Of a stretch of DNA of 64,000 bases, positions 11,255 through 51,818 are shown one piece after another. Location of the stretch: contig NZ_QPKJ02000007.1 of the NCBI RefSeq assembly GCF_003344625.1, forward strand, positions 310,001 through 374,000, given 5' to 3'. How positions within the stretch are numbered: position 1 is the first letter of the stretch; each line of letters starts with the position of its first letter. Made by a program: the position numbers and the translations under genes. The notes below the pieces were generated by a model. That model was given only the letters and a program-made list of their open reading frames with translations, was not told the origin of the DNA and ran no database searches. The DNA comes from Solirubrobacter deserti (lineage in GTDB: Bacteria > Actinomycetota > Thermoleophilia > Solirubrobacterales > Solirubrobacteraceae).

Positions 11255-11625
11255 TTGGCGGCGATCACCTGCAGGCGCTCGACCTGCTCCTCGCTCAGGT
11301 GGGCCGGCATCCGCATGACCATCTCGAAGCGGGTTGGGCAGCCGCGCTGGGCGGGGGAGTAGCGGCAGTCGACCTCGAGGCCGTCCACGTTCCAGCCCTT
11401 GCGCTCGGCGTACATCTCCATCGTCACCGCCGTGCAGGCGGCGAGCGCCGCGGCCAGCAGCTCCTGCGGGCTCGGGCCCATGTCCTGCCCGCCCTGGTTC
11501 TCCGGCTCGTCGACGGTGATCGTGTGCCGTCCCGTCTTGACGTCATGCGTGTAGCGCTCGCGCTTGCGCGCGACGGCCCGCATCGCCTGGGACGAGGTCT
11601 TCTCTGACCGGTTGATGAGTGCCAT
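11191..11625 (-). CDS. OsmC family peroxiredoxin-like protein
   Basis: A 144-residue OsmC/Ohr-family protein, which reduces organic hydroperoxides using two cysteines. Cys64 (LAACTAVTMEMY) and Cys125 (AAKCPVHRT) are both present with their usual surroundings, and the Ohr-type GGQDMGPSPQELLAAAL segment precedes the first. The ATG overlaps the DUF1015 stop by one base (TGATG) and follows a GGAGGA ribosome site lying in the end of that gene. It sits between DUF1015 and the Nudix hydrolase in a three-gene run. Confidence 0.92.
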   Translation of the reverse strand: MALINRSEKTSSQAMRAVARKRERYTHDVKTGRHTITVDEPENQGGQDMGPSPQELLAAALAACTAVTMEMYAERKGWNVDGLEVDCRYSPAQRGCPTRFEMVMRMPAHLSEEQVERLQVIAAKCPVHRTLEGEVAFDERVELT

Positions 11626-12827
11626 CAGTCCTCCAGGGGATTGAACACCATCCCCGTCAGCACCTTCGGGAAGAAATAGGTCGACTTCGGCGGCATGTTC
11701 TCGCCCGCCACGGCGACGTCGCGCACGCGCTCGACCGGGCTCGCGTTCATCAGGAAGGCCGCGTCGGCCTCGCCCGCGTCCACCTTCGCCTTGGCCTGCT
11801 CCGGCGTGCGCGCGTAGTCGAGGCCGTGCAGGTGGGAGATGTCGTCCTCGGTGAGCCCGAGCGCGTCCATCAGGATCAGCTTCTCCAGCACGGCCGTGTC
11901 CAGGCGCCGGTACGGCTCCGGCTTGCCGATGAGCGCCGCGTCGGCGACCTCCCAGTCCTTGAGGTAGAGCGTGGAGAGCTCACCGTTGGCGTAGTACCCG
12001 ATGCTCAGCGTGGCACGCGGCTCGGTGGTCCAGTCGCGCCCGAACGCGGCGGTGAGCGCTTCCATGTCGGCGTTCGTGGCCAGGCGGTGGGTCGGGAAGA
12101 CGGTCAGGCCCTCGTCCTGCAGGGCGACCAGGCACATCAGCACGTGGGTCGCGGCCGGGTTCTCCTGCTGGTAGACGCGCGCGGTCTCGTAGCGGTGGTG
12201 GCCGTCGGCGATCAGCAGCTCGGTGCCCGAGAGCGCGGCCTTGAAGGCTTCGATCGCCTGCGGGTCATCGACGCGCCAGAGCTTGTGCGTGGTGGCCTCG
12301 TCGTCGCTGACCTCGCCCCAGGGCGCCGATTGCGTGAACGGCGCGATCGCCTTCCACGCGGCGTTCTGCGGGTCGTCGTAGAGGCTGAAGATCGGCGACA
12401 GGTTCGTGCGTGTGGCGCGCGTGAGCCGCAGCCGGTCCTCCTTCGGGCCGGGATGCGTGCGCTCGTGCGGGCGGATGCGGCCGGGGCCGTAGTCCTCCAC
12501 GCGCACGCGCGCGAAGACGCCGTGGCGGGTGCGCTGCCGGCCGTCGGGCCCGGTGTAGTCCTGTGCGAGCGCCCACAGAGCCGGGGTGTTGTCGCGGGTG
12601 ACGATGCCTTCGGTCGTCCAGGCGGTGAGCGTCTGCGCAGCGTGCGCGTACGGGTCGGAGTCGCTGAAGGGAAGATCGATCTCGACGACGTTGTACGGCG
12701 AACGGCCCAGGAGCGCCGCTCGCTGGGCCGAATCGATCACGTCATAGGGCGGGGCGGCTACGGGCTGGAGCCCGCCGACCTTCACCAGGTCGTAGTGCAG
12801 TGCCAGAAGGGGCTCGACGTCGGCCAT
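11625..12827 (-). CDS. DUF1015 family protein
   Basis: A 400-residue protein of the DUF1015 (COG4198) family, whose biochemical role is unknown. Family landmarks are clear: VAAPPYDVI near residue 25, LLIADGHHRYETA in the middle and a C-terminal MPPKSTYFFPK. The conserved DGHHRYE and PPKST motifs suggest a phosphate or nucleotide pocket, but this is inference. First gene of a coupled run with osmC-like and the Nudix hydrolase. The divergent or upstream control region is only 18 bases from the CAP gene's stop. Confidence 0.93.
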   Translation of the reverse strand: MADVEPLLALHYDLVKVGGLQPVAAPPYDVIDSAQRAALLGRSPYNVVEIDLPFSDSDPYAHAAQTLTAWTTEGIVTRDNTPALWALAQDYTGPDGRQRTRHGVFARVRVEDYGPGRIRPHERTHPGPKEDRLRLTRATRTNLSPIFSLYDDPQNAAWKAIAPFTQSAPWGEVSDDEATTHKLWRVDDPQAIEAFKAALSGTELLIADGHHRYETARVYQQENPAATHVLMCLVALQDEGLTVFPTHRLATNADMEALTAAFGRDWTTEPRATLSIGYYANGELSTLYLKDWEVADAALIGKPEPYRRLDTAVLEKLILMDALGLTEDDISHLHGLDYARTPEQAKAKVDAGEADAAFLMNASPVERVRDVAVAGENMPPKSTYFFPKVLTGMVFNPLED

Positions 12828-12845: not shown

Positions 12846-13523
12846 TCAGGCCTTGGCGCCGAAGTCGGCCGTCACGGTGGCGCCGACGCCCGCGTCGCTC
12901 GGCACGCCGAGGCGGATCGCGATGCCGACTTCCTTGTAGGACTTCTTGAGGATGTTGGCCTTGTGGCCGGCCGAGTTCATCCAGGCGTCCATGATCGCCT
13001 GCGGGGTGCTCAGCTCGCCCGTGCCCCACGCGAGGTTCTCACCGATCGTCCACGCGTCGTTGCGCTTGGCGTAGCCCGCGGCCAGGATGCGGTCGACGAA
13101 CGTGTCGCCGTCCGGGCTGGTGTGGTCGAAGAAGCCGTCGGCCACCATGTCGTCCGAGTGGCCCGCGGCGGCCTTGCGCAGCTTCGCGTTGTCCTTGAGC
13201 AGCGGCAGGCCCGCGGTGTTGCGGATCTGGTTGTGCAGGCACAGGATCGCGGCGCGCACGACCTCGAGGTTGGCGGCGTCCGGCGTGATCGTCGTGTTCG
13301 AGCAGGGCGCGAGCGAGGCCTTGGCCTGGACCTTCTTGGCCTTCGTCGCCTTCGCCTTGGCCTTGGTGGAGCGCTTGTCGCCGAGCGCGATCTTGGCCGT
13401 GATCGTCTTGGTCGCCTTGCTGCCCTTCTTCGCCGGAGCGGCGGAGGCGGGCGCGGCGAACACGAGGCCGGCGGCGACGGCCACGGCGGGGATCATGCGA
13501 GTGAAGATCTTCTTGGCGTGCAC
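12846..13523 (-). CDS. secreted CAP-domain (SCP/PR1) protein under a c-di-GMP riboswitch
   Basis: A 225-residue exported protein. After the signal peptide (to about ASAAPA) comes a Lys/Ala-rich segment of about 45 residues that is probably disordered or wall-binding, then a CAP domain of about 135 residues with LHNQIRNTAGLPLL, AAAGHSDDM, FFDHTSPDGDTF, IGENLAWG and MNSAGHKANIL. These carry the His and Glu residues of the CAP cavity. Family members are extracellular; enzymatic activity is seldom shown. The long leader holds a c-di-GMP-I aptamer (separate entry). GTG start preceded by GGAG at a fitting distance; that GGAG lies in the palindrome at 13528-13539. Confidence 0.9.
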   Translation of the reverse strand: MHAKKIFTRMIPAVAVAAGLVFAAPASAAPAKKGSKATKTITAKIALGDKRSTKAKAKATKAKKVQAKASLAPCSNTTITPDAANLEVVRAAILCLHNQIRNTAGLPLLKDNAKLRKAAAGHSDDMVADGFFDHTSPDGDTFVDRILAAGYAKRNDAWTIGENLAWGTGELSTPQAIMDAWMNSAGHKANILKKSYKEVGIAIRLGVPSDAGVGATVTADFGAKA

Positions 13524-13549
13524 GGCTGACGGCTCCGTCTCGGTCAGTG

Positions 13550-13594
13550 GTCGGGTCAGTGCGTTCCGTCGACCCGACGTGCCGTGCAGGCACG
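13550..13594 (-). promoter_or_regulatory. candidate expression platform of the c-di-GMP riboswitch
   Basis: Between aptamer and gene two strong hairpins can be drawn on the minus strand: CGTGCC/GGCACG at 13578-13594 with a 5-base loop, and GTCGGGTC/GACCCGAC at 13550-13578 with a 13-base loop. They share one base and so may be mutually exclusive or stacked. No T-tract follows, so control could be by a GC-rich terminator without U-tail or by access to the ribosome site. The pairing is seen; the mechanism is inferred. Confidence 0.4.
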
Positions 13595-13670
13595 AATCCT
13601 TCGGTAGCCCGGCTGGCTCAGAGAGCCCCGTGGCTTTGCGCCCCGTCCTCGCGGATGGTTTGCCTTTGTC
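13590..13670 (-). promoter_or_regulatory. class I c-di-GMP riboswitch (GEMM-I)
   Basis: Read on the minus strand the leader of the CAP gene contains, in order, AAAGGCAAACC, a GCGA tetraloop stem, GGGGCGCAAAGCC, ACGGGGCU, and then AGCCGGGCUACCGAAGG. These are the conserved blocks of the GEMM-I aptamer: the GGCAAACC and GCAAAGCC strands flank the ligand site, and the GNRA loop docks in the second stem. Order, spacing and direction all match, and the only gene downstream on this strand is the CAP protein. It would make expression of a surface protein depend on c-di-GMP. Confidence 0.9.
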
Positions 13671-13748
13671 GGGAGATGGAACGAGTTGTTGCCTACTTGA
13701 TCGGCAGCTGGCGGCAAATCATTAGCCCGCTGCGATACTGACCTCTGA

Positions 13749-13823
13749 CGGGGCGTGGCGCAGCCTGGTTAGCGCGCGTGCTTTGGGAGCACGAGGTCCC
13801 CGGTTCGAATCCGGGCGCCCCGA
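13749..13823 (+). tRNA. tRNA-Pro(TGG)
   Basis: The cloverleaf folds fully: acceptor stem CGGGGCG with CGCCCCG, a D arm with AGC..GGTTAGCG, anticodon stem CGTGC/GCACG with loop TTTGGGA (anticodon TGG), and T arm CCCGG-TTCGAAT-CCGGG. Discriminator A; CCA is not encoded. A GATACT box ten bases upstream could be the promoter -10. The 3' end lies close to the methyltransferase-like gene. Confidence 0.97.
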
Positions 13824-13831
13824 TCACTAGC

Positions 13832-14659
13832 GTGTCGGCTCATGCCGACCCGAATCCAGCACTGACGGTGGGTGTCGATGCCGCGGGACTGCGGTTCTTA
13901 CTGACCGCGACAGGCGTCGATCTGGCCCGCACACTTACGATCGGCCGTCAGCAGCTATTCCTGGAGCAGGACGCGCTGGAGGCGGCGTTCCGCGATCATG
14001 GGCGGCCGCTGGCGGCGCACGACGCACGGGAGTTACTCGCCGGTGACCGCTGGGCGGAGCCGCTGTTTGAGCGGCTGGGCGCCGGGTCGGTGTCGTCGCT
14101 CGACGCGTCCGACTACGAGGGCGCGACGATCGTCGCCGACCTCAACCGGCCGGTCGACACGCTCGACGCTCAGTTCTCCTGCGTCTTCGACGGCGGCACG
14201 CTCGAGCACGTGTTCGAGTTCCCGACGGCGCTGCGCAGCTGCATGCGGATGGTCGCCCAGGGCGGGCATCTGATCACGATCAGCCCGTTCGACCACTACG
14301 CGGGCCATGGCTTCTATCAGTTGGGCCCAGAGGTCCCGTTCCGAGCGTTCACCCGCGAGAACGGGTACGAGCTCGAGCGGGTGCTGGTGTCCGAGGGCGC
14401 AGAACGCTGGTGGGAGCTGTCGGATCCGCTTGAGGTCGGTCGCCGGCCGGTCCTCCCGCGCCGGCGCCCAATGCTGATCTACGCGCAGGCGCGCCGAGTG
14501 GACCTGACCGAGCCGCTGCGGATTCCGCCGCAGGAGAGTGACTACGCCGCGTTGTGGGCGGGCCGCAGCGTGTCGCCCGCGCCGCGGCCGAGCCTCGTCG
14601 ATCGCATGCTCGGCCGTGCCCCCCGGGATCCCGCGTTCATGCGGCGCGTGCGTCTCTGA
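13832..14659 (+). CDS. class I SAM-dependent methyltransferase-like protein
   Basis: About 275 residues. The centre carries the SAM-methyltransferase pattern CVFDGGTLEHVFEFPTALRSC followed by a strand-turn MVAQGGHLITISPF and GHGFYQLGPEVPFRAF, a combination seen in uncharacterised methyltransferases found in glycan or nucleotide-sugar neighbourhoods. The N-terminal third lacks a clear glycine-rich SAM loop, so enzymatic activity is uncertain. The start is ambiguous: GTG at 13832 lies just after tRNA-Pro; another GTG at 13868 gives VGVDAAGLRF. Reading further upstream would run into the tRNA. Substrate unknown. Confidence 0.65.
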   Translation: MSAHADPNPALTVGVDAAGLRFLLTATGVDLARTLTIGRQQLFLEQDALEAAFRDHGRPLAAHDARELLAGDRWAEPLFERLGAGSVSSLDASDYEGATIVADLNRPVDTLDAQFSCVFDGGTLEHVFEFPTALRSCMRMVAQGGHLITISPFDHYAGHGFYQLGPEVPFRAFTRENGYELERVLVSEGAERWWELSDPLEVGRRPVLPRRRPMLIYAQARRVDLTEPLRIPPQESDYAALWAGRSVSPAPRPSLVDRMLGRAPRDPAFMRRVRL

Positions 14660-32057: not shown

Positions 32058-33290
32058 CTACGCGGGCGGCGGGAAGGCGCGCGCCAGCTCGAGGACCTCG
32101 CCGCGGATGCGCTCCAGCGTCGCCTCGTCCCGCGCCCGGACGCCCTCGTCGATCCAGCGCGCGAGCTCCGGCATGTGGTCGGGCGCGAGGCCGCGGGTGG
32201 TGATCGCGGGCGTGCCCAGGCGGATGCCGGACGGGTCCAGCGGCGGGCGCGGGTCGAACGGGACCGCGTTGTAGTTGCAGACCAGGCCCGCCCGCTCGAG
32301 CGCCTCCGCGGCGGCACGCCCGGGCACACCGGTCGCGGACAGGTCGACGAGCAGCAGGTGGTTGTCGGTGCCGCCGGAGACGAGGTCGTACCCGCGCTCG
32401 AGCAGCGCATCGGCCAGCGCCACCGCGTTGGCGACGATGGCGTGCGCGTACTCGGCGAAGGCGGGCTGCGCGGCCTCGTGCAGCGCGACCGCGATCGCGG
32501 CCGTCGTGTGATCGTGCGGGCCGCCTTGGAGGCCGGGGAAGACGGCGCGGTCGAGCGCGGACGCGTGCTCGGCGCCCGACAGCAGCATCGCCCCGCGCGG
32601 GCCGCGGAGGGTCTTGTGGGTGGTGGTCGCGATCGCGTCGGCGTGGCCGACCGGGGAGGGGTGGGCCCCGCCCGCGATCAGGCCGGCGATGTGCGCGACG
32701 TCGGCCGCCAGCATGGCGCCGACCTCCTGCGCGATCGCGGCGAAGCCGGCGAAGTCGATCGTGCGCGGGATCGCCGTGCCGCCGCACCAGATCAGCTTCG
32801 CCCGCTCACGCCGGGCGAGCGCGCGCACCTCGTCGAGGTCGATCACGCCCGTGTCGCGGCGCACGCCGTAGCGGACCGACCGGAACCAGCGGCCGGTGAC
32901 GGACACGCCCCAGCCGTGCGTGAGGTGCCCGCCGGCGTCGAGCGCCATCCCCAAGACCGTGTCGCCCGGCTCCAGGAAGGCCGCGTAGACGGCGAGGTTC
33001 GCGGGCGCGCCGGAGAGCGGCTGGACGTTCGCGTGCTCGACGCCGAACAGCTCGCGTGCGCGCTGCGTCGCCACCTCCTCGATCCCGTCGACGACCGCGT
33101 TGCCCTGGTAGTAGCGCTTGGACGGGTAGCCCTCCGAGTACTTGTTGGTGAGCACCGACCCCGTCGCGGCGAGCACCGCGGGCGAGACGTGGTTCTCGGA
33201 CGCGATCAGGCACAGCGTGTCGTGCTGGCGCGCCTGCTCGGCGGCGATCAACTCGGCGACCTGCGGATCGACGGTGGCGAGGGAGTGCAT
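32058..33290 (-). CDS. glyA: serine hydroxymethyltransferase
   Basis: PLP enzyme interconverting serine and glycine and charging tetrahydrofolate with a one-carbon unit. The 410-residue protein shows LIASENHVSPAVL, TNKYSEGYPSKRYYQG, NVQPLSGAPAN and the PLP lysine in TTTHKTLRGPRG. Starts: ATG at 33290 is six bases after GGAGG and is preferred over the GTG two codons earlier, which overlaps that ribosome site. The leader carries a ZTP riboswitch (separate entry), linking expression to purine/one-carbon status. Confidence 0.97.
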   Translation of the reverse strand: MHSLATVDPQVAELIAAEQARQHDTLCLIASENHVSPAVLAATGSVLTNKYSEGYPSKRYYQGNAVVDGIEEVATQRARELFGVEHANVQPLSGAPANLAVYAAFLEPGDTVLGMALDAGGHLTHGWGVSVTGRWFRSVRYGVRRDTGVIDLDEVRALARRERAKLIWCGGTAIPRTIDFAGFAAIAQEVGAMLAADVAHIAGLIAGGAHPSPVGHADAIATTTHKTLRGPRGAMLLSGAEHASALDRAVFPGLQGGPHDHTTAAIAVALHEAAQPAFAEYAHAIVANAVALADALLERGYDLVSGGTDNHLLLVDLSATGVPGRAAAEALERAGLVCNYNAVPFDPRPPLDPSGIRLGTPAITTRGLAPDHMPELARWIDEGVRARDEATLERIRGEVLELARAFPPPA

Positions 33291-33312
33291 GGGCACCTCC
33301 GAAGCTCGGATT

Positions 33313-33400
33313 CGATGCCCAGGCGCGCGGCGGCTCAGGGGCGCGCCGCTTCCCGGTGGTCAGTTCCACCCGAGGCGCCAGTCACGACGCGCGTCGGCGA
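33313..33400 (-). promoter_or_regulatory. ZTP/ZMP riboswitch (pfl motif)
   Basis: On the minus strand the glyA leader reads CGUCGUGACUGGCG, then a GGGUGGA / ACCACCGGGAAGCG pairing, and after a GC-rich variable stem CCGCCGCGCGCCUGGGC. These are the two conserved halves of the pfl aptamer, which binds ZMP/ZTP when 10-formyl-tetrahydrofolate is short and commonly controls glyA, folD and purH. Just after it, UCCGA can pair with UCGGA, the latter touching the GGAGG ribosome site of glyA, so control may be at translation. Confidence 0.9.
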
Positions 33401-51790: not shown

Positions 51791-51818
51791 TTGCACGCTC
51801 GCCGTTAATTGGTAGGGT
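51791..51818 (+). promoter_or_regulatory. promoter for the catabolic/transport operon
   Basis: TTGCAC at 51791-51796 and TAGGGT at 51813-51818, with 16 bases between, lie 29 bases before the epimerase ATG. A GAGGAGAGGAG purine run provides the ribosome site. The 89 bases before it (from the ROK stop) are unusually AT-rich for this genome, a likely operator zone for the ROK protein. Confidence 0.5.

Follow-up and report, generated by a model that had tools for sequence, protein, structure and literature searches.

A Class-I c-di-GMP Riboswitch behind a Putative Flagellar/WhiG-Type Promoter: A Possible Two-Layer c-di-GMP Gate on a CAP-Domain Gene of Solirubrobacter deserti

The leader of a CAP-domain gene of the soil actinobacterium Solirubrobacter deserti, termed CAP-A here, carries a class-I c-di-GMP riboswitch aptamer, and a flagellar/WhiG-type promoter appears to lie 24 nt upstream of it. 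The promoter was overlooked in the initial annotation of the 64-kb stretch of DNA under study (hereafter the window), as were the WhiG and RsiG genes, the other five aptamers of this genome (one of them ahead of a second CAP gene), and the variant label given by Rfam. Because a WhiG-type promoter, an aptamer, and a WhiG/RsiG pair are found in one genome, c-di-GMP probably gates a single gene twice, at initiation and in the mRNA. On balance, we favor such a two-layer gate on CAP-A, in whichever direction the riboswitch acts.

The CAP-A Gene and Its Aptamer

The features of the locus are listed below in window coordinates.

11625..12827 (-): ORF 18 nt past CAP-A, a possible second gene of the unit, which we take to be DUF1015-like
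12846..13523 (-): CAP-domain protein, 225 aa (PF00188, 66.1 bits; cut-off 21.1)
13521-13523 (-): GTG start of CAP-A
13533..13536 (-): Shine-Dalgarno sequence GGAG, 9 nt ahead of the GTG, read from the sequence
13550..13578 (-): hairpin B (GUCGGGUC/GACCCGAC), predicted by folding; its 5' arm is complementary to the P1 5' strand CCCGAC
13578..13594 (-): hairpin A (CGUGCC/GGCACG), predicted by folding; a possible decoy, with a 5' arm similar to the start region
13599..13673 (-): class-I c-di-GMP (GEMM-I) riboswitch aptamer with G20/A47/C92, from RF03167 and RF01051 covariance scores, residues by alignment
13698..13705 (-): putative -10 element GCCGATCA of a flagellar/WhiG-type promoter
13721..13724 (-): putative -35 element TAAT of the same promoter, assigned by a published rule that allows up to two mismatches

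The initial annotation had placed a GEMM-I aptamer, on the correct strand, in the leader of a secreted CAP-domain protein, and both parts of this claim stand. The plain RF01051 model scores the CAP-leader aptamer at 64.5 bits, one base shifted, which exceeds the gathering threshold of 35. The GTG start lies 75 nt past the aptamer end on the same strand. In addition to the PF00188 match, the protein has a signal-like N terminus and a Lys/Ala-rich spacer, both assigned by reading; its score for the TIGR02909 YkwD domain is 77 bits, under the cut-off of 171. The adjacent ORF adjoins CAP-A in five of six loci, our own included, and no match to it is found in the 750 nt of the sixth (L016).

The RF01051 label needs qualification. 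Across the whole 64-kb window, the best-scoring Rfam family is RF03167, "c-di-GMP-I-GGC" (69.5 bits, E = 2.3e-14, gathering 59). The letters GGC presumably denote positions 20, 47, and 92. The RF03167 consensus has a G at position 47, where the CAP-A aptamer has an A. The ligand-contact residues of the CAP-A aptamer are G20, A47, and C92 (columns 10, 39, and 95 of alignment A3). This alignment holds 65 of the 66 aptamers found in relatives (L052 is identical to L023 and was left out), and its numbering follows PMC3764141 and PMC4744006, whose relevant parts place G20 in J1-2, A47-A48-A49 in J2-3, and C92 in J3-1. A47 is present in all 65 aptamers, as is C44, whose interhelical partner is G83; GAC at positions 20, 47, and 92 is present in 61, including CAP-A, the exceptions being L020, L065, L071, and L072. 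With canonical G20, A47, and C92, the GGC label does not fit, and membership in RF03167 was rejected despite its score. From these residues, c-di-GMP is the expected ligand. A different ligand, as for a GGC variant or a 3',3'-cGAMP riboswitch, would fit the higher RF03167 score but is very improbable: position 47 is not the variant G, position 20 is G rather than A, and the genome has 51 GGDEF matches, fragments counted.

The CAP-A element thus resembles RF01051 riboswitches in fold, conserved blocks, contact residues, and leader position; it differs from them in its CAP target and its flagellar/WhiG-type promoter. In the set of aptamers from the taxonomic class, a letter motif applied without alignment finds G20 and A47 in 60 of 72; of the remainder, five have A, five T, and one C at position 20, and one has T at position 47. 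In L020 and in the five class-set aptamers with A in place of G at position 20 (the latter by letter motif), the ligand is possibly altered. A20 is the change known from cGAMP-binding GEMM-Ib riboswitches.

A Flagellar/WhiG-Type Promoter ahead of the Aptamer

The CAP-A promoter reads TAAT-N15-GCCGATCA, with two mismatches to TAAA / GCCGATAA. In PMC8325347, WhiG targets in Rubrobacter were sought by the rule TAAA / GCCGATAA, with no more than two mismatches and a start codon no further than 200 bp away, and 12 of 20 were confirmed by 5' end mapping. In the leaders studied here, the motif was first noticed by eye as a GCCGAT-like box shortly ahead of the aptamers. A loose promoter score returns a candidate in 47 of 66 leaders, as compared to 30% of mononucleotide shuffles. 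The published rule was then applied to the 110 nt ahead of each aptamer with spacers of 14-16. It finds sites before 24 of the 66 relatives' aptamers, whereas dinucleotide shuffles yield 39 in 6600 and sequence windows from the same loci 6 in 3774; at one mismatch or fewer, nine aptamers retain a site. For 22 of the 24 leaders that have a site, the -10 box ends 13-26 nt ahead of the aptamer.

The same scan outside the order, within the class, is the fairer test, because the rule was fixed beforehand, whereas the motif had first been seen by eye in the set of 66. Sites precede 27 of 71 aptamers; the corresponding counts are 48 in 3550 shuffles and 13 in 3240 sequence windows, and the spacing between box and aptamer is more variable (3-81 nt). 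This set covers 71 of the 109 matches listed outside the order (29 loci and 42 further sequences); L224 was dropped from the replication set as a member of the same family. Elsewhere in the phylum, in other classes, an uncontrolled count finds sites at 17 of 29 top-scoring loci; 11 of these 29 come from one family, 10 of them with sites.

Among CAP genes, too, the site goes together with the aptamer, occurring in six of nine with an aptamer versus none of 19 without (Fisher p = 2e-4, a value that overstates independence because many leaders are orthologous). For this comparison, short letter motifs served to recognize aptamers, repeats were skipped, and three of the 11 own-genome CAP loci (L079, L081, and L082), which gave no tblastn match, were left out. 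A rule site is present in five of the six CAP-A leaders, our own included; the sixth, that of L016, carries GCCGATTA and a poor -35 element.

CAP-A could instead be served by an ordinary stand-alone c-di-GMP riboswitch, with the WhiG-like site arising by chance and transcription starting at another promoter. The two mismatches of the CAP-A site are in keeping with this explanation, and 42 of the 66 related leaders have no rule site. We nonetheless regard it as improbable, given that the site is correctly placed, is the sole minus-strand match to the rule in the 64-kb window at spacers of 14-16, and recurs in the CAP-A leaders, while no sigma70-type promoter was found in 13300-13900. The two mismatches also weigh against the two-layer gate, as does the fact that only three of the six own-genome leaders (CAP-A, CAP-B, and pilin) pass the rule. 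The window holds one plus-strand match, at 51801-51808. A tRNA-Pro (TGG) gene at 13749-13823 (+), oriented divergently to the CAP leader, is separated by 24 nt from the -35 element.

Sigma Factors and RsiG

The genome encodes a WhiG equivalog (NF004935, 367.8 bits versus a cut-off of 343), and no flagellar gene was read in the stretch that holds it. RsiG is represented by an 86-aa ORF (PF22802, 73.9 bits versus a cut-off of 27) that, by reading, contains the motif E(X)3S(X)2R(X)3[Q/H](X)3D in its H variant, and the E-S-R-H-D spacing is as described for Conexibacter RsiG. From these matches we infer that WhiG reads the CAP-A promoter and that RsiG gates it. RsiG was rejected as a marker of riboswitch genomes, since 38 of 41 relatives have an RsiG match regardless of aptamers. 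One of the relatives (G031) has aptamers yet no RsiG match.

A second FliA/WhiG-family sigma factor (214.8 bits versus a cut-off of 189.6) is encoded amid ORFs that read as flagellar-type, and this promoter should be readable by it as well; WhiG and flagellar sigma factors have their promoter specificity in common (PMC8325347). If this factor rather than WhiG transcribes the gene, CAP-A would follow flagellar assembly, and the riboswitch would be the sole c-di-GMP sensor. Two genomes (G120 and G282) that have promoter sites yet no RsiG match agree with such an arrangement. It is nevertheless rather unlikely in our view, because many of the targets are pilins, as for Rubrobacter WhiG, and 54 of the 58 riboswitch genomes examined across the class and phylum have an RsiG match.

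Proposed Two-Layer Gate

In the two-layer gate that we favor, transcription would begin at the flagellar/WhiG-type promoter, whose motif is present and whose use we infer. At high c-di-GMP, the small anti-sigma factor RsiG would keep WhiG inactive. In the second layer, the class-I aptamer would fold no more than ~20 nt from the 5' end of the nascent RNA, and ligand-stabilized P1 would alter the hairpin cover of the Shine-Dalgarno sequence and GTG, such that translation changes. In the OFF version, low c-di-GMP would allow the CAP protein to be made alongside the type IV pilin.

A close precedent is the RsiG-(c-di-GMP)2-WhiG switch of Rubrobacter and Conexibacter (PMC8325347). It shares with our system WhiG, a single-motif Conexibacter-type RsiG, the promoter rule, and pilin targets. 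It differs in that the target transcripts described here also bear a c-di-GMP aptamer; the word riboswitch is absent from the main text of PMC8325347. In the Bdellovibrio attack phase, FliA-type promoters similarly precede surface-anchor and protease genes, and a c-di-GMP riboswitch RNA (merRNA) is present in the same phase. Unlike the CAP-A leader, merRNA is not followed by a conserved ORF, and the FliA-promoter column of Table 2 in that source is blank for it (PMC3627812, in part). The Cd1 class-I riboswitch of Clostridioides difficile is likewise tied to a flagellar sigma factor, SigD, with the order reversed: there, the riboswitch controls the sigma operon, whereas here a flagellar-type sigma factor appears to transcribe the riboswitch (PMC6366702, in part). 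Our literature search, outside which most subscription journals lie, found no report that pairs a c-di-GMP riboswitch with a WhiG-type promoter. It likewise found no paper joining a c-di-GMP riboswitch with a CAP domain, and nothing on Solirubrobacter riboswitches beyond a Mycobacterium genome paper.

Tentatively, and with somewhat less than even confidence, we suggest that deep-branching Actinobacteria have recruited class-I riboswitches as a second c-di-GMP sensor on WhiG transcripts, with RsiG responding in the micromolar range and the aptamer in the nanomolar range. The result would be a double lock or a band-pass filter. If the two-layer gate holds, the same gene would be read at two steps, transcription and RNA, by sensors of one signal whose affinities, taken from related parts, are about a thousand-fold apart, and the level of CAP protein could track c-di-GMP unusually sharply. 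CAP-A would then offer a natural case in which to ask what a cell gains from layering two sensors for a single signal, and would carry the RsiG-WhiG system further than the sigma factor. Pilins, CAP proteins, subtilases, and glycoside hydrolases would form a list of candidate c-di-GMP outputs for a class that has received little study, and a CAP family would acquire a regulatory context.

Expression Platform and Output Direction

Two hairpins between the aptamer and the start had been put forward as a possible expression platform. Both fold (13594-13578 and 13578-13550), whereas their role as a platform is not borne out: the complementarities are marginal to non-significant, and the folding differences are small. 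The pairing of hairpin A is maintained in six orthologues (alignment A4, by reading), which also conserve the aptamer and much of the sequence between it and the start. In several orthologues, predicted folding pairs the start region with GCACGGC in a helix. A terminator-type platform was rejected, as no minus-strand terminator was found in 13300-13900. Together with the short leader and the conserved hairpins, this result suggests that output control acts on translation.

Three specific pairings were considered and set aside. Complementarity of the hairpins to the start, which would make them a start-codon decoy switch, is equalled by 25, 62, 51, 432, 745, and 551 per 1000 shuffles in the six orthologues; it is marginal in three, not above shuffles in the other three, and not significant as a whole. 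Anti-P1 pairing by the 5' arm of hairpin B is equalled by 46 (own sequence), 122, 75, 171, 748, and 98 per 1000 shuffles, and was dropped as marginal at best. Masking of the Shine-Dalgarno sequence by P1 was rejected in 11 direct-type leaders, where the native mean is -7.45 versus -7.66 kcal/mol for swapped partners (permutation p = 0.62), a result that counts against OFF. In direct-type leaders (loci L018, L010, L020, L022, L024, L061, L059, L025, L014, and L049), the 3' end of the aptamer runs nearly into the Shine-Dalgarno sequence, and the start lies 7-13 nt beyond.

Once the aptamer has formed, opening the start region costs less energy in five of the six CAP-A orthologues, by 0.3-3.3 kcal/mol, and in four of the six direct-type leaders that could be computed, which favors ON. 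Across 51 leaders the values are mixed, the bound value not being computable for four of them. In four further direct-type leaders, P1 pairs, when forced, extend into the Shine-Dalgarno region, a geometry that favors OFF.

The opening energies bear on a second form of the gate, in which the same two layers operate and c-di-GMP turns translation ON. Production of CAP protein would then be confined to intermediate c-di-GMP, at levels that exceed the threshold of the riboswitch but stay below that of RsiG. We regard this band-pass behavior as doubtful; the probability we assign to it is the other half of that given to the two-layer gate and not additional to it. The lower opening energies in the CAP-A orthologues are consistent with it, as are the affinities of related parts, which are far apart: ~1 nM for a c-di-GMP riboswitch (PMC3627812, in part) and a quoted 1.7 uM for Conexibacter RsiG with WhiG. 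However, the energy differences are small, the model ignores tertiary contacts, and the possible anti-P1 pairing would argue for OFF. That high c-di-GMP turns CAP-A OFF is, taken by itself, also a doubtful claim, and we lean toward it slightly because it is coherent with the action of RsiG at high c-di-GMP.

The aptamer might also bind c-di-GMP with little effect on CAP-A, as a non-responsive leader or a sponge RNA. Precedents are Bc1 of Bacillus thuringiensis, which hardly altered downstream expression (PMC11218506, in part), and the Bdellovibrio merRNA (PMC3627812, in part), and our own platform tests are weak. Conservation from the aptamer through much of the stretch to the start in six orthologues speaks against such an element, and we consider it quite unlikely.

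Regulon and Distribution

Six class-I aptamers are present in this genome. Their downstream genes are CAP-A, a subtilase (PF00082), a cellulase-family gene (PF00150), a second CAP gene, a pilin with an N-methylation motif (PF07963), and one gene without a Pfam match; an aptamer is found at 2 of the 11 CAP matches in the genome. The initial proposal of a c-di-GMP-controlled surface protein draws partial support from the canonical aptamer, from the signal-like N terminus of the CAP protein, from the recurrence of aptamer and CAP-A in the genus genomes searched, and from the same-genome aptamers before a type IV pilin and secreted-looking proteins; the platform role that it suggested for the hairpins is not borne out.

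Among relatives, 66 aptamers occur in 22 of 41 genomes, this one counted. By reading of the translations, they precede CAP-A (6), CAP-B (5), pilin-like (20), and subtilase-like (6) genes; Pfam was applied to 10 representative downstream ORFs, and L054 has no downstream ORF because it lies at a contig end. The expectation that related CAP genes would share the leader is borne out within the genus and, among the CAP loci compared, not beyond it. The aptamer and CAP-A occur together in all seven Solirubrobacter genomes searched, one of which is of the same species. Among the best 80 of at least 564 CAP loci, three have the aptamer (two of S. phytolaccae and one of Candidatus S. pratensis), and these come from the same genomes as G003 and G002, such that they are not independent of the genus set. 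None of the 76 non-Solirubrobacter loci among those 80 has an aptamer above noise, nor does L123, the fourth Solirubrobacter locus; some of the 80 have short upstream sequence (79 nt only for L171). A hit at L149 (13.5 bits, E = 0.27) was counted as noise. In these best 80 of at least 564 loci, the riboswitch-CAP link is thus seen in Solirubrobacter only.

Several further loci deserve mention. L023 and L052 (G023:C1:3813901-3814862) are identical aptamers ~880 bp apart, each before a pilin ORF with the same N terminus, which looks like a tandem duplication of riboswitch and pilin. The aptamer of L006 (G000:C200:478509-478589) lies ~0.9 kb downstream of a same-strand GGDEF domain (479473-479946). 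L071 (G012:C7:35927-36000) is a weak aptamer match (35.6 bits) before an ORF that reads as ClpC-like, and an RsiG match with an internal stop codon lies ~540 nt beyond it. Elsewhere in the window, a ZMP/ZTP riboswitch (RF01750, 59.9 bits) at 33310-33395 (-) stands just ahead of an ORF at 32058-33296 (-) that reads as glycine hydroxymethyltransferase-like, presumably an ordinary ZTP target.
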